Under the pieces are notes generated by a model, which saw only the letters and a list, made by a program, of their open reading frames with translations, made no database searches and was not told the origin of the DNA. Of a DNA stretch of 64,000 bases, positions 39,792 through 44,104 are shown piece after piece; within the stretch, counting starts at the first letter, position 1, and the number at the start of each line of letters is the position of its first letter. The stretch is from the NCBI RefSeq assembly GCF_900101625.1, contig NZ_FMYZ01000002.1:310001-374000 (forward strand), in the 5' to 3' direction. The position numbers and the translations under genes were made by a program. Source of the DNA: Cupriavidus sp. YR651. Lineage in GTDB: Bacteria; Pseudomonadota; Gammaproteobacteria; Burkholderiales; Burkholderiaceae.

Positions 39792-40574
39792 TTGTTTGAC
39801 GGCATCGATTGGACGCGGCCGTGGTTCCGGCCATTTGCCGCGTCCGGCATGGCACTGGACGGCGGCGATGTCCGGCAGGCACTCAGCCGGCAAGCTGCTG
39901 GCCTGACCAATGCCCGGGGGCTGCCCCTACGGTTCGTACCGCAGGCCGCGCTGCCGGACGGTCAGGCCTACGAATCCCACATCTTCGCGACCGGTGAGGT
40001 GCCGACGCGCGACAATCTCCACGACGTGTTCAATGCGCTCGTCTGGCTGCATTTTCCCGAGACCAAATCGCTGCTGAACCGGCTGCAGGCCGACGCGATT
40101 GATCGGGACGGCATCCAACCCGTGCGCGGAGGGGTGCGTGATGCGGCAACGCTGTTCGACGAGAACGCGGTGATCCTGGTCACAGAGGACGCTGGCCTGG
40201 TGGCGGCATTGCGCGGGTTTGCATGGCGCAGTCTTTTTATCGACCGCCGGGCGGCCTGGCCCGAAGCCGTCACCGTAGTGCCGTTCGGCCATGCGTTGCT
40301 GCAAAAGCTCGTGCGGCCGTACAAAGCCGTGACGGCTCATGCCTGGTGGATCGCGGCGCCCCCGAATACCCCGCGAGAGGAACTGGACCGGCTGCTGGCG
40401 CGGTCGCTCGCCACGGCGGCGGATCAGGGGACATTGCAGGGCGGGCGCTGCTTCGCGCCGCTCCCGGTACTGGGCATTCCGGGCTGGTGTGACGAAAACG
40501 CCGAGCCGGCGTTCTATGACGACGTCTCCGTGTTTCGCCCGGGCCGGCGCGGGTCGGCTGCAGTGACGGGCTGA
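39792..40574 (+). CDS. DUF3025 protein, function unknown
   Basis: The protein has 260 residues if it starts at the TTG at 39792, 5 bp after the pyrC stop. It would then open with FDGIDWTRPWF, the usual DUF3025 N-terminus. The next ATG (39849) would remove that conserved segment. Other family features are HDVFNALVWLHFP (about 78-90) and the hydrophobic VVPFGHALLQKLVRPYKAVT (about 158-177). There are no catalytic motifs I can name. It is probably translated together with pyrC. Its 3' end overlaps the rnpB promoter. Confidence 0.8.
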   Translation: MFDGIDWTRPWFRPFAASGMALDGGDVRQALSRQAAGLTNARGLPLRFVPQAALPDGQAYESHIFATGEVPTRDNLHDVFNALVWLHFPETKSLLNRLQADAIDRDGIQPVRGGVRDAATLFDENAVILVTEDAGLVAALRGFAWRSLFIDRRAAWPEAVTVVPFGHALLQKLVRPYKAVTAHAWWIAAPPNTPREELDRLLARSLATAADQGTLQGGRCFAPLPVLGIPGWCDENAEPAFYDDVSVFRPGRRGSAAVTG

Positions 40575-40599
40575 CCTGCCGATCCATCAGTGTTAGACT
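40571..40599 (+). promoter_or_regulatory. rnpB promoter
   Basis: CTGACC (40571-40576) and TAGACT (40594-40599) are 17 bp apart and predict initiation near 40606, which fits the 5' end of RNase P RNA. It overlaps the stop of the DUF3025 gene. Confidence 0.7.
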
Positions 40600-40607
40600 G
40601 CGGCCCG

Positions 40608-40946
40608 CAAAGCAGGCCAGACAACCGCTGCTTGCGTCGCAAGGCGCAAGGGGAGGAAAGTCCGGACTCCACAGGGCAGGGTGTTGGCTAACAGCCATCC
40701 ACGGCAACGTGCGGAATAGGGCCACAGAGACGAGTCTTGCCGCCAGGTTCGCCTGGCGGGAAGGGTGAAACGCGGTAACCTCCACCTGGAGCAATCCCAA
40801 ATAGGCAGGCGCTGAAGCGGCCCGCTGAGCCTGCGGGTAGGGAGCTGGAGCCGGCCGGTAACGGTCGGCCTAGAGGAATGGTTGTCACGCGTCGTCCGCC
40901 GCAAGGTGGGCGGGGTGCACAGAATCCGGCTTATCGGCCTGCTTTG
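40608..40946 (+). ncRNA. rnpB: RNase P RNA (type A)
   Basis: This is the catalytic RNA that trims tRNA 5' ends. The conserved core GAGGAAAGTCCGGACTC (about 40653-40669) forms the P4 region. The downstream matching segments AGAGGAATGGTTGTCACG (about 40872-40889) and ACAGAATCCGGCTTATC (about 40919-40935) are intact. P1 is formed by GCAGGCC near the 5' end (40612-40618) and GGCCTGC near the 3' end (40936-40942). The ends are estimated from P1 and may be off by a few bases. Confidence 0.95.
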
Positions 40947-41000
40947 CTTCTGTTTCCCAAGCCACCCGGCGCGGCCGGGCGGCGTCTTCGGTCGGGGCGT

Positions 41001-41423
41001 TCAGCCCTCGACGATTTCCATCGTGTGCGTGATCTCGGCGGTCTTGGCCAGCATGATCGAGGCCGAGCAATACTTTTCGTGCGACAGCTCGATCGCGCGT
41101 TCCACCTTGACGGGGTCCAGGCCGCGGCCGGTAACCGTGAAGTGGAAATTGATCTTCGTGAAGACCTTCGGATCGGCGTCGGCGCGCTCGGCTTCGAGCC
41201 TGACCGAGCAGCCGCGCACGTCCTGGCGGCCGCGCTTGAGGATCAGTACCACGTCATAGGCCGTGCAGCCGCCCGTGCCGAGCAGCACCATTTCCATGGG
41301 GCGCGGCGCAAGGTTGTTGCCGCCGCCATCGGGTGCACCGTCCATCGCAACGATGTGACCGCTACCGGTCTGGGCCACAAAGCTCATGCCCTCGGGGCCC
41401 ATCCATGTCACTTTGCATTCCAT
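41001..41423 (-). CDS. OsmC-family peroxiredoxin-like protein (YhfA type)
   Basis: The protein has 140 residues. The OsmC/Ohr fold has the reactive Cys in LLGTGGCTAYDVVLILKRG (about 47-65) and the second in HEKYCSASIMLAKTAEI (about 114-130). Family members reduce organic hydroperoxides, but this YhfA-like branch is uncharacterised. It converges on rnpB. Its own promoter lies in the 830-bp gap before rplM: a TATACT on the minus strand at 41496-41501 is a candidate -10. Confidence 0.9.
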   Translation of the reverse strand: MECKVTWMGPEGMSFVAQTGSGHIVAMDGAPDGGGNNLAPRPMEMVLLGTGGCTAYDVVLILKRGRQDVRGCSVRLEAERADADPKVFTKINFHFTVTGRGLDPVKVERAIELSHEKYCSASIMLAKTAEITHTMEIVEG

Positions 41424-41659
41424 TTTGTTCGTTCCTTGGTTCCTGATTGTGTGTTTTCGCTCACGTCCGCGTGATCACGAATCTTGCATTTGCTGAGTAT
41501 ATGACATCGGGGTGCGGCGTCGCGGCCAAGGGATTTCCCGCGCAAATCCGAGGGTTTCCTCTAAGTCGGCGTCTGACTGTCATCCGATGACTTTCCTCAA
41601 GCGGTTGTTTTTAAAGAATATTGTGTTCTTGTGTGTATCGTGTAGGGCATTTCGTAATA

Positions 41660-41681
41660 TGCAATGCGATTTCGCAGTGCA
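41660..41681. promoter_or_regulatory. Operator-like dyad upstream of the small RNA promoter
   Basis: TGCAATGCGA (41660-41669) and TCGCAGTGCA (41672-41681) are inverted repeats with one mismatch and a TT spacer. The centre is about 53 bp before the predicted start of the small RNA, a common place for an activator. Confidence 0.45.
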
Positions 41682-41688
41682 AATTTTC

Positions 41689-41716
41689 TTGCATCCGCGG
41701 GACCTGCATGTATAAT
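41689..41716 (+). promoter_or_regulatory. Sigma-70 promoter of the small RNA
   Basis: TTGCAT (41689-41694) and TATAAT (41711-41716) are 16 bp apart, and the region upstream is AT-rich. Initiation is expected near 41723. This is the best promoter match in the window. Confidence 0.8.
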
Positions 41717-41722
41717 TCCAGT

Positions 41723-41898
41723 CATTGAACGACGGCGCATGCAGCGCGCCAGAGTGCGAAAGCGAAAGTCAGGTAATCAACACCTCCATCGCTCGCCGCA
41801 CCGCCCGCCACGACCGGCACCGTCGATCACCCAGTGTCTCCTCCACCCTCCTCCTTTGGTGGATTCAAACCCAAGTCCAACCGACTTGGGTTTTTTTT
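41723..41898 (+). ncRNA. Candidate small RNA with anti-Shine-Dalgarno loop
   Basis: This is a transcript of about 175 nt bounded by a strong promoter and a perfect intrinsic terminator, in a stretch with no credible gene. Just before the terminator, TCCACC (41842-41847) pairs with GGTGGA (41858-41863) and exposes CTCCTCCTTT in the loop (41848-41857). That loop is complementary to ribosome binding sites. Two more CU-rich tracts lie at 41782-41787 (ACCTCC) and 41838-41843 (CTCCTC). The design recalls the CCUCC-loop 'cuckoo' RNAs of rhizobia, but I cannot show homology. A frame that opens at 41739 lacks a ribosome site and reads through the terminator, so it is unlikely to be coding. Confidence 0.65.
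41868..41898 (+). terminator. Intrinsic terminator of the small RNA
   Basis: AACCCAAGTC (41868-41877) pairs perfectly with GACTTGGGTT (41883-41892), with a 5-nt loop, and runs into six more T (41893-41898). Confidence 0.93.
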
Positions 41899-42072
41899 CG
41901 TCCGTGCTTTTGTCCATGCTTTCGTCGATGGCAAGCGGTGACAGATCTCGAAGACAGGGCTCGCGGAGGCAATTATCCAGGCCCGGCGCACATCGCGTGG
42001 CGCCGGAGCCGCATGTTTGCGCGGGTTGCTCGGCATCGGGTCGGACATCTTGACGAAAAGCCACGACTTTGC
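41899..42072. other. Spacer between small RNA and rplM promoter
   Basis: This is 174 bp with no gene or motif that I can support. Both strands are broken by stops or show only short frames without ribosome sites. Confidence 0.5.
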
Positions 42073-42102
42073 TTGTGCGTTCCAGTCGTCCGCCAGTATA
42101 AT
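42073..42102 (+). promoter_or_regulatory. rplM-rpsI promoter
   Basis: TTGTGC (42073-42078) and TATAAT (42097-42102) are 18 bp apart. The predicted leader of about 145 nt before rplM is long enough for autoregulation by L13, but no known leader motif is recognised. Confidence 0.65.
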
Positions 42103-42253
42103 CGACGGCTTTTCCGGTCATTGCCCCCGGGAAAGAAGTCAGGGAGAGCCTGCAAATACAAGCAGGAAGGTCAGGTCCAAAGGGCCGGCCGATCGACAGG
42201 ACGCTAAAACGGCGACCGTCAAATCGGGCAGTATTCAATAGTCAGGAAAAATC

Positions 42254-42682
42254 ATGAAGACCTTTTCCGCCAAGCCTCATGAGGTAAAGCGCGACTGGTA
42301 CGTGATTGACGCGACGGACAAGGTCCTCGGCCGTGTTGCCAGCGAAGTGGCACGCCGACTGCGCGGCAAGCACAAGCCGGAATTTACTCCGCACGTCGAC
42401 ACCGGTGATTACATCATCATCGTCAACGCAGCAAAGCTGCGCGTCACGGGTACCAAAGAAACGGACAAGAAGTATTACCGCCACTCGGGTTACCCGGGCG
42501 GTATCTACGAAACGACGTTCGGCAAGATGCAGCAACGTTTCCCGGGCCGCGCCCTGGAAAAGGCTGTGAAGGGCATGCTGCCGAAGGGTCCGCTGGGCTA
42601 TGCGATGATCAAGAAGCTGAAGGTTTACGCCGAAGCCGAGCATCCGCATGAAGCGCAGCAGCCCAAGGTGCTGGAAATCTAA
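42254..42682 (+). CDS. rplM: 50S ribosomal protein L13
   Basis: The protein has 142 residues, the standard bacterial length. It is an early-assembly large-subunit protein. It opens [19 protein letters not shown], and the conserved [19 protein letters not shown] (about 107-125) is present. It is followed 12 bp later by rpsI, the usual pair. An AGGAAAAATC ribosome-site region precedes the ATG. Confidence 0.98.
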
Positions 42683-42694
42683 GGGGGCCAATCC

Positions 42695-43087
42695 ATGATC
42701 GGTAACTGGAATTACGGTACTGGCCGCCGCAAGAGCGCTGTGGCACGTGTCTTCATCAAGTCGGGCAAGGGCGACATCGTCGTCAATGGCAAGCCCATCA
42801 ATGAGTACTTCGCTCGCGAAACCTCGCTGATGATCGTGCGCCAGCCGCTGGAACTGACGGCTCACGCCGAGACGTTCGACATCAAGGTCAACGTCACCGG
42901 TGGTGGCGAAACCGGCCAGGCCGGTGCTGTCCGTCACGGCATCACCCGCGCCCTGATCGACTATGACGCCACGCTGAAGTCGGCGCTGTCGAAGGCTGGC
43001 TACGTCACGCGCGATGCACGTGAAGTGGAACGTAAGAAGGTCGGTCTGCACAAGGCACGTCGCCGGAAGCAGTTCTCGAAGCGCTGA
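42695..43087 (+). CDS. rpsI: 30S ribosomal protein S9
   Basis: The protein has 130 residues. It carries [19 protein letters not shown] (8-26) and the invariant C-terminal tail [11 protein letters not shown], whose last Arg reaches the P-site t[22 protein letters not shown] (about 70-88) is the central conserved stretch. It is cotranscribed with rplM and followed by a strong terminator. Confidence 0.98.
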
Positions 43088-43130
43088 TGCGCATTCGCAG
43101 GTTCGCTCTGGCGAGCCTTGCGAATCCGGA

Positions 43131-43163
43131 AAAACCGCACGATTCGTCGTGCGGTTTTTTTTT
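43131..43163 (+). terminator. Intrinsic terminator after rpsI
   Basis: AAAACCGCACGA (43131-43142) pairs perfectly with TCGTGCGGTTTT (43147-43158) around a TTCG tetraloop, within a nine-T run (43155-43163). The A-rich left side could make it work on both strands. Confidence 0.95.
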
Positions 43164-43301
43164 GCCCCGACTCGCGCTGTGGCTCGTGATTCGACTCGAA
43201 TACGTTACAGAGATGGGTAAGTGTTCCAGTTGTCATACTTGTCATTCGCACAATGACCGTCCGGAGATACAATCACGGGCCTGCGAATGGAGAGGCAAAT
43301 C

Positions 43302-43370
43302 ATGGAGCACTGGATTGCCGGGCAGTTTGGCGGCCACCGCGCGTCGAGCCGGGTAGCCAGATGGGCCTGA
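43302..43370 (+). CDS. Short leader ORF overlapping the coiled-coil gene start
   Basis: This is 22 codons beginning MEHWIAGQFGG and ending RVARWA. A good ribosome site (GGAGAGG, 43288-43294) sits 7 bp before its ATG. Its TGA (43368-43370) overlaps the start of the next gene (ATG 43361), which itself has no clear ribosome site. This arrangement suggests translational coupling. No homology can be judged at this length. Confidence 0.45.
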   Translation: MEHWIAGQFGGHRASSRVARWA

Positions 43371-44104
43371 AGTACCGGCCGTTGCGGCCTCGCAAGGGTT
43401 TGCGGACGTCGCGCGCGATGCTTCGCGGGCATCGCTCGTGGCGAACATGGGCGCTGAGCGTTGCGCTGTTGCTGTTCGTCGGTACGTGTCTGGCCTTCTG
43501 GGCCTACACCGCCAACAGCCGAATGACCGGCGGACAGGAACTGGCCGCGGTCAATGCACAACTGCGCACGCAACTGGCGGACGTAACGGCCGAGCGCGAC
43601 CGGTTGCGGGCGGGTGCGGACACGGCGGAGGCGCAGCTGGAGATGGCGCATGCGGCGCAGGATCAGCTCGCCCGGCAGTTGAAGACCGCGGAAGCGGAGG
43701 CCGGGCAGTTGAAGGAGGACCTGGGATTTTTCGAGACACTCCTGCCTACGTCCGGCGATACCTCGGGCATTCACGTCCGGAGTTTCCGGGTCGCGATGGA
43801 TGAAACTCGACCGCATGCCATGCACTATCGTTTGCTCGTGATGCAGGGTGGCTCCAAGGCTTTTGTCGAGCAGCCGGAATTTCGGGGTGAATTGCAGTTC
43901 ATAATTTCAGCAATTCGGAGTGGGAAGCCGTTAACGCTCACGGTGCCTCAGCCGAGCGAGCCGCCCTTGCCGGCGGTTCGGCTCACGCATTACCAGCGCA
44001 TCGAAGGCGATCTGGGGATTCCCCAGGATGCCGAAGTCCGCGCCGTATCAGTCCGTGTTCTTCAGAACGGGCAGGTGCGCGCGACACAGTCGGTAACGCC
44101 GTAG
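43361..44104 (+). CDS. Membrane-anchored coiled-coil protein (DUF6776-like)
   Basis: The protein has 247 residues. A basic N-terminus is followed by one membrane helix (about 31-51, WALSVALLLFVGTCLAFWAY), a coiled coil (about 62-120, rich in Ala/Glu/Gln/Arg with regular leucines) and a beta-rich periplasmic domain (about 125-247) containing IHVRSFRVAMDE. The DUF6776 label is from memory of bactofilin neighbourhoods and is tentative. ATG 43361 is used; ATG 43418 is an alternative. It precedes the bactofilin gene by 23 bp, so a partner role in positioning the cytoskeletal protein is reasonable. Confidence 0.7.
   Translation: MGLKYRPLRPRKGLRTSRAMLRGHRSWRTWALSVALLLFVGTCLAFWAYTANSRMTGGQELAAVNAQLRTQLADVTAERDRLRAGADTAEAQLEMAHAAQDQLARQLKTAEAEAGQLKEDLGFFETLLPTSGDTSGIHVRSFRVAMDETRPHAMHYRLLVMQGGSKAFVEQPEFRGELQFIISAIRSGKPLTLTVPQPSEPPLPAVRLTHYQRIEGDLGIPQDAEVRAVSVRVLQNGQVRATQSVTP

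Follow-up and report, generated by a model that had tools for sequence, protein, structure and literature searches.

The segment 41689-41898 of the window, that is, of the whole 64,000-nt stretch of the Cupriavidus sp. YR651 genome analysed here, encodes a member of the RNA family RF02278 ("Betaproteobacteria toxic sRNA"), a new member of an already known family. The product is very probably an RF02278/S17-ortholog RNA of 176 nt, which is likely cut to a 64-nt double hairpin and likely represses carbon-uptake and catabolic genes; this reading draws directly on family membership, gene order, a conserved core, covarying stems, a stem-closed leader and 11 complements of its first seed. The sRNA gene is ordinary for its group, and related sequences are also present in bacteria outside the family's namesake group. 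For Cupriavidus, the analysis names the RNA and predicts its start, its mature form and 11 targets, the themes of which are propionate and acetoacetate activation and the uptake of organic and aromatic acids. Compared with the excerpts of the literature on S17 and RF02278 used here, the additions are the stem-closed leader, the rplM-side link to S17, the list of targets and, most notably, the occurrence outside the Burkholderiales.

Organization of the locus

On inspection of the sequence, the promoter, terminator, hairpin and CU-rich loop were all present where the original prediction had placed them. The features of the locus are as follows.

40609-40949: RNase P RNA gene, close upstream (RF00010, 254.8 bits)
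41001-41423, minus strand: osmC-like gene (PF02566, 65.5 bits)
41649-41685, plus strand: tandem dyads ATTTCGTAATATGCAAT and ATTTCGCAGTGCAAATT, 20 bp apart, possible regulator binding sites
41689-41694, plus strand: -35 box TTGCAT, the commonest -35 box (76 of 172 exact-core places)
41711-41716, plus strand: -10 box TATAAT, 16 bp after the -35 box (5 of 6 columns invariant in 57 genus sequences)
41723-41834, plus strand: 5' leader of the long RNA, start predicted at about 41723, closing stem 41726-41735 with 41820-41829
41835-41898, plus strand: RF02278 module, likely the processed short RNA (covariance match 41835-41899; processing inferred from S17)
41835-41844, plus strand: seed 1, UGUCUCCUCC, complementary to GGAGGAGACA, its first seven letters unpaired in the predicted fold
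41842-41863, plus strand: hairpin 1, stem UCCACC/GGUGGA of 6 bp (41842-41847 with 41858-41863)
41848-41857, plus strand: seed 2, the loop of hairpin 1, CUCCUCCUUU (DNA letters CTCCTCCTTT)
41867-41898, plus strand: intrinsic terminator, 11-bp stem and U tract (stem-loop 41867-41893, 5 of 11 pairs G-C, loop of 5)
42254-42682, plus strand: rplM (L13), downstream neighbour (PF00572, 157.4 bits)

The rpsI gene also lies downstream, beside rplM. The promoter that had been described (TTGCAT, 16 bp, TATAAT) and the 6-bp hairpin just before the terminator, with its loop, were recovered letter for letter; the terminator and its T tract are also there, with a stem of 11 pairs, not 10. The two CU-rich tracts reported further upstream correspond to TGTCTCCTCC at 41835-41844, which is conserved, and to CACCTCC at 41781-41787, where conservation is poor. 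The predicted 176-nt transcript folds at -59.8 kcal/mol, compared with -44.25 +/- 3.84 kcal/mol in 200 dinucleotide shuffles (z -4.05), none of which folded as well.

The -35 box agrees with the consensus at three of six letters, and the sRNA promoter is absent from the list produced by a simple consensus scan of 40500-43500, in which both promoters (1 vs 0.9 expected) and terminators (3 vs 3.4 expected) occurred at the level of chance. A like promoter with a score of at least 10 was found upstream of 168 of the 177 exact-core places, against 11.8 expected from shuffles; with a loose score of 8, the TTGCAT-N16/17-TATAAT type precedes 172 of the 177 (67.0 expected). Among the 57 genus sequences, three of the six -35 columns are invariant. 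The case for the promoter therefore comes from conservation, that is, the -10 columns and the 168 of 177 places, and not from the consensus scan.

Loci in the rplM slot (Cupriavidus, Ralstonia, Pandoraea, Burkholderia) commonly have the tandem dyads, which are rare at other loci. A 17-bp dyad scoring at least 12 of 16 was present in 66 of 89 distinct upstream regions at rplM-slot loci versus 5 of 71 others, counted in the same sequences from which the motif was derived. A genome search with two palindromic patterns found nothing, but the patterns were too strict even for the window's own dyads, so that it does not bear on a regulon, and we propose no regulator.

Family assignment and gene copies

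A covariance search against Rfam, which the original prediction had proposed as a check, returned RF02278 at 66.6 bits (cut-off 50) over model positions 1-64 of 64 (Rfam 15); this is the single Rfam match at the sRNA position and covers its 3' 65 nt. Kimelman et al. 2012 is said to be the source cited for the word "toxic" in the family name. The window RNA has a hairpin with an unpaired, CU-rich stretch and, after it, the hairpin of an intrinsic terminator, as described for RF02278, and shares with RNAs of this family the double hairpin (the second being the terminator), the CU-rich seed and the presence of several copies per genome. The original prediction had stated that no named RNA was known at this locus; names for such RNAs exist elsewhere, namely ncS03, ncS05, ncS27 and ncS62 in Burkholderia cenocepacia, Hsnc59, Hsnc63, Hsnc86 and Hsnc107 in Herbaspirillum, and S17 in Bordetella. 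A literature search for a Cupriavidus sRNA together with Rfam and a transcription start site found no account.

RF02278 matches the genome four times (66.6, 53, 39.9 and 32.2 bits), twice above the cut-off. UGUCUCCUCC leading into a hairpin is common to all four copies, and the CUCCUCC loop is found in the rplM-side copy only. The loop singled out in the original prediction is present, but the element that the copies share is UGUCUCCUCC. Matches over the cut-off were obtained in 58 of 60 genomes of the genus and 230 of 249 genomes of the family, compared with 0 of 14 control genomes, and a 226-base query found no copy in a plasmid collection.

Several related loci depart from a single leader-bearing gene. 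Paired sRNA gene copies lie close together at L142 (Pigmentiphaga), L238 and L284, the exact cores at L142 being 377 bp apart, and one genome from another family of the same order (G285) has 10 matches to the model, far above the others listed. At L037, L038, L042, L044 and others of L035-L064, a promoter-like sequence stands immediately 5' of UGUCUCCUCC, so that those copies would need no leader removal.

Conserved core, leader and stems

Among 57 genus sequences, selected for an exact 28-nt core from the best hits of the 58 over-cut-off genomes, all 32 columns of 41835-41866 are invariant, as are 18 of 33 terminator columns and 13 of the 117 columns of the leader region (41718-41834). The 58th best hit has a single C-to-T substitution in the loop, and the alignment leaves out the two genomes with weaker best hits, which are 78% and 54% complete. 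In the named stretches from other taxa, the core is exact by selection.

Although free in sequence, the leader retains a closing stem: a helix of at least 4 pairs between its first and last 20 nt was found in 140 of 147 distinct leaders, where 61.6 were expected from dinucleotide shuffles (duplicates and six places with fewer than 40 nt between the -10 box and the core were excluded). By analogy with S17, the leader of about 110 nt is probably a stem-closed element, free in sequence, that is removed from the mature RNA.

When core-bearing and outside sequences were aligned directly with MAFFT, their stems fell out of register, and a model built from 24 sequences, taken from exact-core loci and the family search with none from the set outside the order, was therefore used to align the rest. 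In the resulting alignment of 51 distinct rows, which is fitted to the model, takes in loci outside the order and includes three weak rows (14-18 bits) that are probably chance matches, 96.1% of cells are paired. The covariation that the original prediction had anticipated was observed: 172 cells are changed on both sides, compared with 44.2 in shuffles, and two-sided change affects 2 of 5 pairs of helix 1 and 9 of 9 modelled terminator pairs. Two of the five covariation measures were unremarkable, with 40 of 500 shuffles as high for two-sided pairs and 92 of 500 for further pair types.

A dual-function RNA, with a long form that serves as a short mRNA encoding a small peptide and a short form that is a further product, is very unlikely. 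S17 does hold a 32-residue frame that runs into its short form, according to excerpts of the S17 preprint (PMC11722255), and in the frame taken as its counterpart 108 of 172 places have a start codon from which reading continues into the core. The remaining two frames give 89 and 172 of 172, however, so the 108 are unremarkable; the distance from the -10 box to the core is spread over all frames modulo 3 (64/57/51), start and stop of the S17-like frame both fall inside the RNA in 53 of the 172 places only, and the frame in the window overruns the terminator. A protein reading through the core was likewise rejected, with no frame kept across relatives at the 172 exact-core places, as expected from the original statement that the segment holds no credible gene.

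Gene order and relationship to Bordetella S17

A scan of named genomes found the exact 31-nt core in at least 119 stretches, the matches listed including Cupriavidus, Ralstonia, Pandoraea, Burkholderia, Paraburkholderia, Limnobacter and Bordetella, and further Achromobacter, Alcaligenes, Castellaniella, Pigmentiphaga, Caldimonas and a Ca. Methylopumilus bin. In an even draw of the order, the exact core was present in 21 of 300 genomes (15 of 134 genera), so its letters are kept in only part of the order.

Within the genus, the slot osmC-sRNA-rplM is nearly constant: in the stretch examined around each exact-core locus, osmC lies to the left in 57 of 57 and rplM to the right in 55 of 57, and RplM at same-slot named Cupriavidus loci is up to 99.3% identical. 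Among the matches listed (120 places), both genes are close in 44. The 68 listed places without an rplM hit have osmC 1.0-1.45 kb upstream in 37 cases, nearer in 10 and elsewhere in 3; it is absent from the examined stretch in 18.

At the loci from Bordetella pseudohinzii (L148) and Achromobacter (L095), OsmC is followed by COQ7, then by the sRNA with the 31-nt core and a glycosyltransferase, and the published order at the B. pertussis S17 locus is coq7–S17–glycosyltransferase (PMC11722255). Because an osmC-like gene lies upstream in both arrangements and the two loci show the COQ7/glycosyltransferase order, we conclude that the window RNA is, as judged from gene order and core, the putative positional ortholog of S17 in a rearranged neighbourhood. 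The 31-nt core is identical in the named Bordetella relatives, a comparison made without the letters of B. pertussis S17 itself, and the short form of S17 is described as having a 27-nt invariant region at its 5' end (PMC11722255). The TTGCAT -35 box and the osmC neighbourhood are further points of likeness, and the long and short forms of S17 (about 190 and 67 nt) compare with 176 and 64 nt predicted here (PMC11722255). The window also has the letters of a sigma-70 type promoter, the kind expected to produce the long form of an S17 ortholog. Unlike S17, the window RNA has a different leader sequence and rplM as its close neighbour in place of coq7 and a glycosyltransferase, and the BvgA control of S17 cannot be assumed for it (PMC11722255).

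Its position upstream of rplM, on the same strand, would also suit a cis-acting leader or attenuator of rplM-rpsI. This is scarcely credible, as a terminator stands between the sRNA gene and rplM, the RNA adjoins COQ7 and a glycosyltransferase instead of rplM at the Bordetella and Achromobacter loci examined, and the genome has three more copies, at other places, that carry its seed. The cis-leader candidate was rejected, the RNA being found without rplM elsewhere.

Predicted mode of action and targets

For a trans-acting S17-type RNA, transcription from the promoter at 41689-41716 would yield the 176-nt long RNA, which would likely be cut near 41835, a site borrowed from S17, whose leader differs, to give the 64-nt double hairpin. 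UGUCUCCUCC, together with the CUCCUCCUUU loop, would then pair with ribosome binding sites and repress carbon-uptake and catabolic genes. For transcription, RNase E processing, Hfq binding and repression we rely on relatives: in the available excerpts, S17 has a long form and an abundant RNase E product that binds Hfq, and represses its targets by pairing at ribosome binding sites (PMC11722255). Its deletion raised 91 genes, 70 of them with S17 sites, and its targets include 32 transporter-related genes or operons, direct repression being demonstrated for one gene, BP2158 (PMC11722255). In B. cenocepacia, over-expression of ncS27 slows growth and silencing speeds it, and carbon transport and metabolism are among the predicted targets of the double-hairpin RNAs (PMC5688073). 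Three of the four RNAs there are 57-67 nt long and unprocessed, unlike the window RNA, for which a leader of about 110 nt is predicted; processing is reported for ncS27, of 92 nt (PMC5688073).

The pattern GGAGGAGACA-N2-9-ATG occurs at 11 sites in the strain's own genome, compared with 0 for the reversed control and 1 for the altered control GGAGGAGAST. All 11 ATGs open frames of at least 300 aa, three of which run off the end of the stretch examined around them. As classified by Pfam or NCBIfam family, the predicted targets include two MFS transporters, two TctC receptors and a porin, together with a protein resembling substrate-binding proteins (L221), which gave only weak NCBIfam matches of 78.5 bits, below cut-off. 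PrpE (TIGR02316) and acetoacetate-CoA ligase (TIGR01217) both score over cut-off, and the others are an outer membrane protein of the phenol type, a PurB/PcaB-type lyase and a short-chain dehydrogenase. Six of the 11 concern uptake, or seven if the outer membrane protein is counted. Pairing energies of -19.7 to -20.4 kcal/mol follow by construction from the exact seed used for the search, and GGAGGAGACA is itself a strong ribosome binding site. The only other exact seed-1 site within the window is the antisense of the sRNA gene. Complementarity to the loop, where the original prediction looked for targets, was found with the seed-2 pattern AAGGAGGAG-N3-10-ATG, which occurs six times, including at two of the 11 sites, and not at all when reversed.

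The loop region contains, from 41850, CCUCCUUU, which we take to be letters of the 16S 3' tail, and the RNA could be directed at the ribosome, lowering translation in general by mimicking the 16S anti-Shine-Dalgarno tail. In the literature excerpts, RF02278 members are toxic on a vector in E. coli, in addition to the slower growth of B. cenocepacia on ncS27 over-expression (PMC5688073). This alternative is nevertheless improbable: over-expression of S17S left the exponential growth of E. coli BL21 unimpaired and affected entry into stationary phase only modestly (PMC11722255), and the conserved part does not stop at the anti-SD letters but includes UGU, the complement of the ACA beside GGAGGAG.

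Pairing with the ribosome binding sites of nutrient-uptake genes is preferred as the likely mode of action, on the basis of homology. The original prediction, which proposed a trans-acting RNA covering ribosome binding sites, saw a real sRNA gene, and its guess at the mode of action appears to have been a good one, supported by the full-length RF02278 match and the positional orthology to S17. The CcsR "cuckoo" RNAs of Rhodobacter carry CU-rich anti-SD loops and are likened to the window RNA through these only, not by sequence. NmsRA and NmsRB of Neisseria meningitidis have two anti-Shine-Dalgarno motifs and repress carbon metabolism genes (prpB, prpC, TCA cycle), which resemble the targets predicted here (PMC5362039); unlike the window RNA they are two tandem sibling copies, and the likeness is again one of description, not of sequence.

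Relatives outside the Burkholderiales

A class-level search with RF02278 (E of at most 0.001) matched 67 of 229 genomes. Three of these are in the Burkholderiales and are the only ones over the cut-off; the other 64 belong to other orders (best 48.7 bits). Forty of these 64 loci, the 34 best and six lower ones, were analysed. The 24-sequence model matched 40 of 40, with 42 matches and two loci matched twice; the loci having been chosen by RF02278, this is no independent discovery. The match starts with CTCCTCC in 36 of the 40 and contains CCATCCTCCTTTGGTGG in 22. TTGAC occurs within 115 nt upstream in 33 loci (4.3 expected from shuffles), 32 of its 38 occurrences lying between -80 and -50, and most of the 40 have the same seed, promoter placement and terminator. 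When 20 of the loci were searched against Rfam, RF02278 was the best match to the sRNA in all 20, always below the cut-off, and three also matched other Burkholderia sRNA families, more weakly. The alignment of the outside loci covaries, with the outermost pair of helix 1 failing in 18 of 34.

One letter of a 23S signature separates Beta- from Gammaproteobacteria. As a check on kinship it was sought in 41 genomes and matched exactly in nine: the six of these from the Burkholderiales carry the beta letter, and the three from outside carry the gamma letter. An exact match was missing in 32 of 41, including 31 of the 34 outside the Burkholderiales. In a phylum-wide draw, 60 of 398 genomes matched; the matches outside the order were weak except for one at 38.2 bits, those outside the class reaching at most 32 bits, so close relatives are uncommon outside the Burkholderiales in that draw.

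RF02278 is stated in one paper, in the part available, to occur exclusively in Betaproteobacteria; another, also available in part, lists a single RF02278 RNA for Aeromonas salmonicida J223, and no first sighting outside the Betaproteobacteria is therefore claimed. A literature search joining Burkholderia bdhR1 or double-hairpin small RNA with Gammaproteobacteria found no account. The relatives below the cut-off outside the Burkholderiales suggest that the Rfam family is too narrowly defined and that this brake on ribosome sites has an older origin than its name implies. We lean towards regarding RF02278/S17 as one branch of a wider, old family of anti-Shine-Dalgarno RNAs in Beta- and Gammaproteobacteria, with a disposable stem-closed leader of variable sequence, a near-frozen CUCCUCC seed and loop and a terminator, in which the letters before the seed are group-specific (UGU in the Burkholderiales copies, most often GA outside) and which would act as a clade-tuned brake on carbon uptake. 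If so, the pre-seed letters would follow the local dialect of ribosome binding sites. At L229-L248 and L279-L298, GA and not GU is the most frequent pair of letters in front of CUCCUCC (18 of 40), a difference that may follow local ribosome-binding-site habits.
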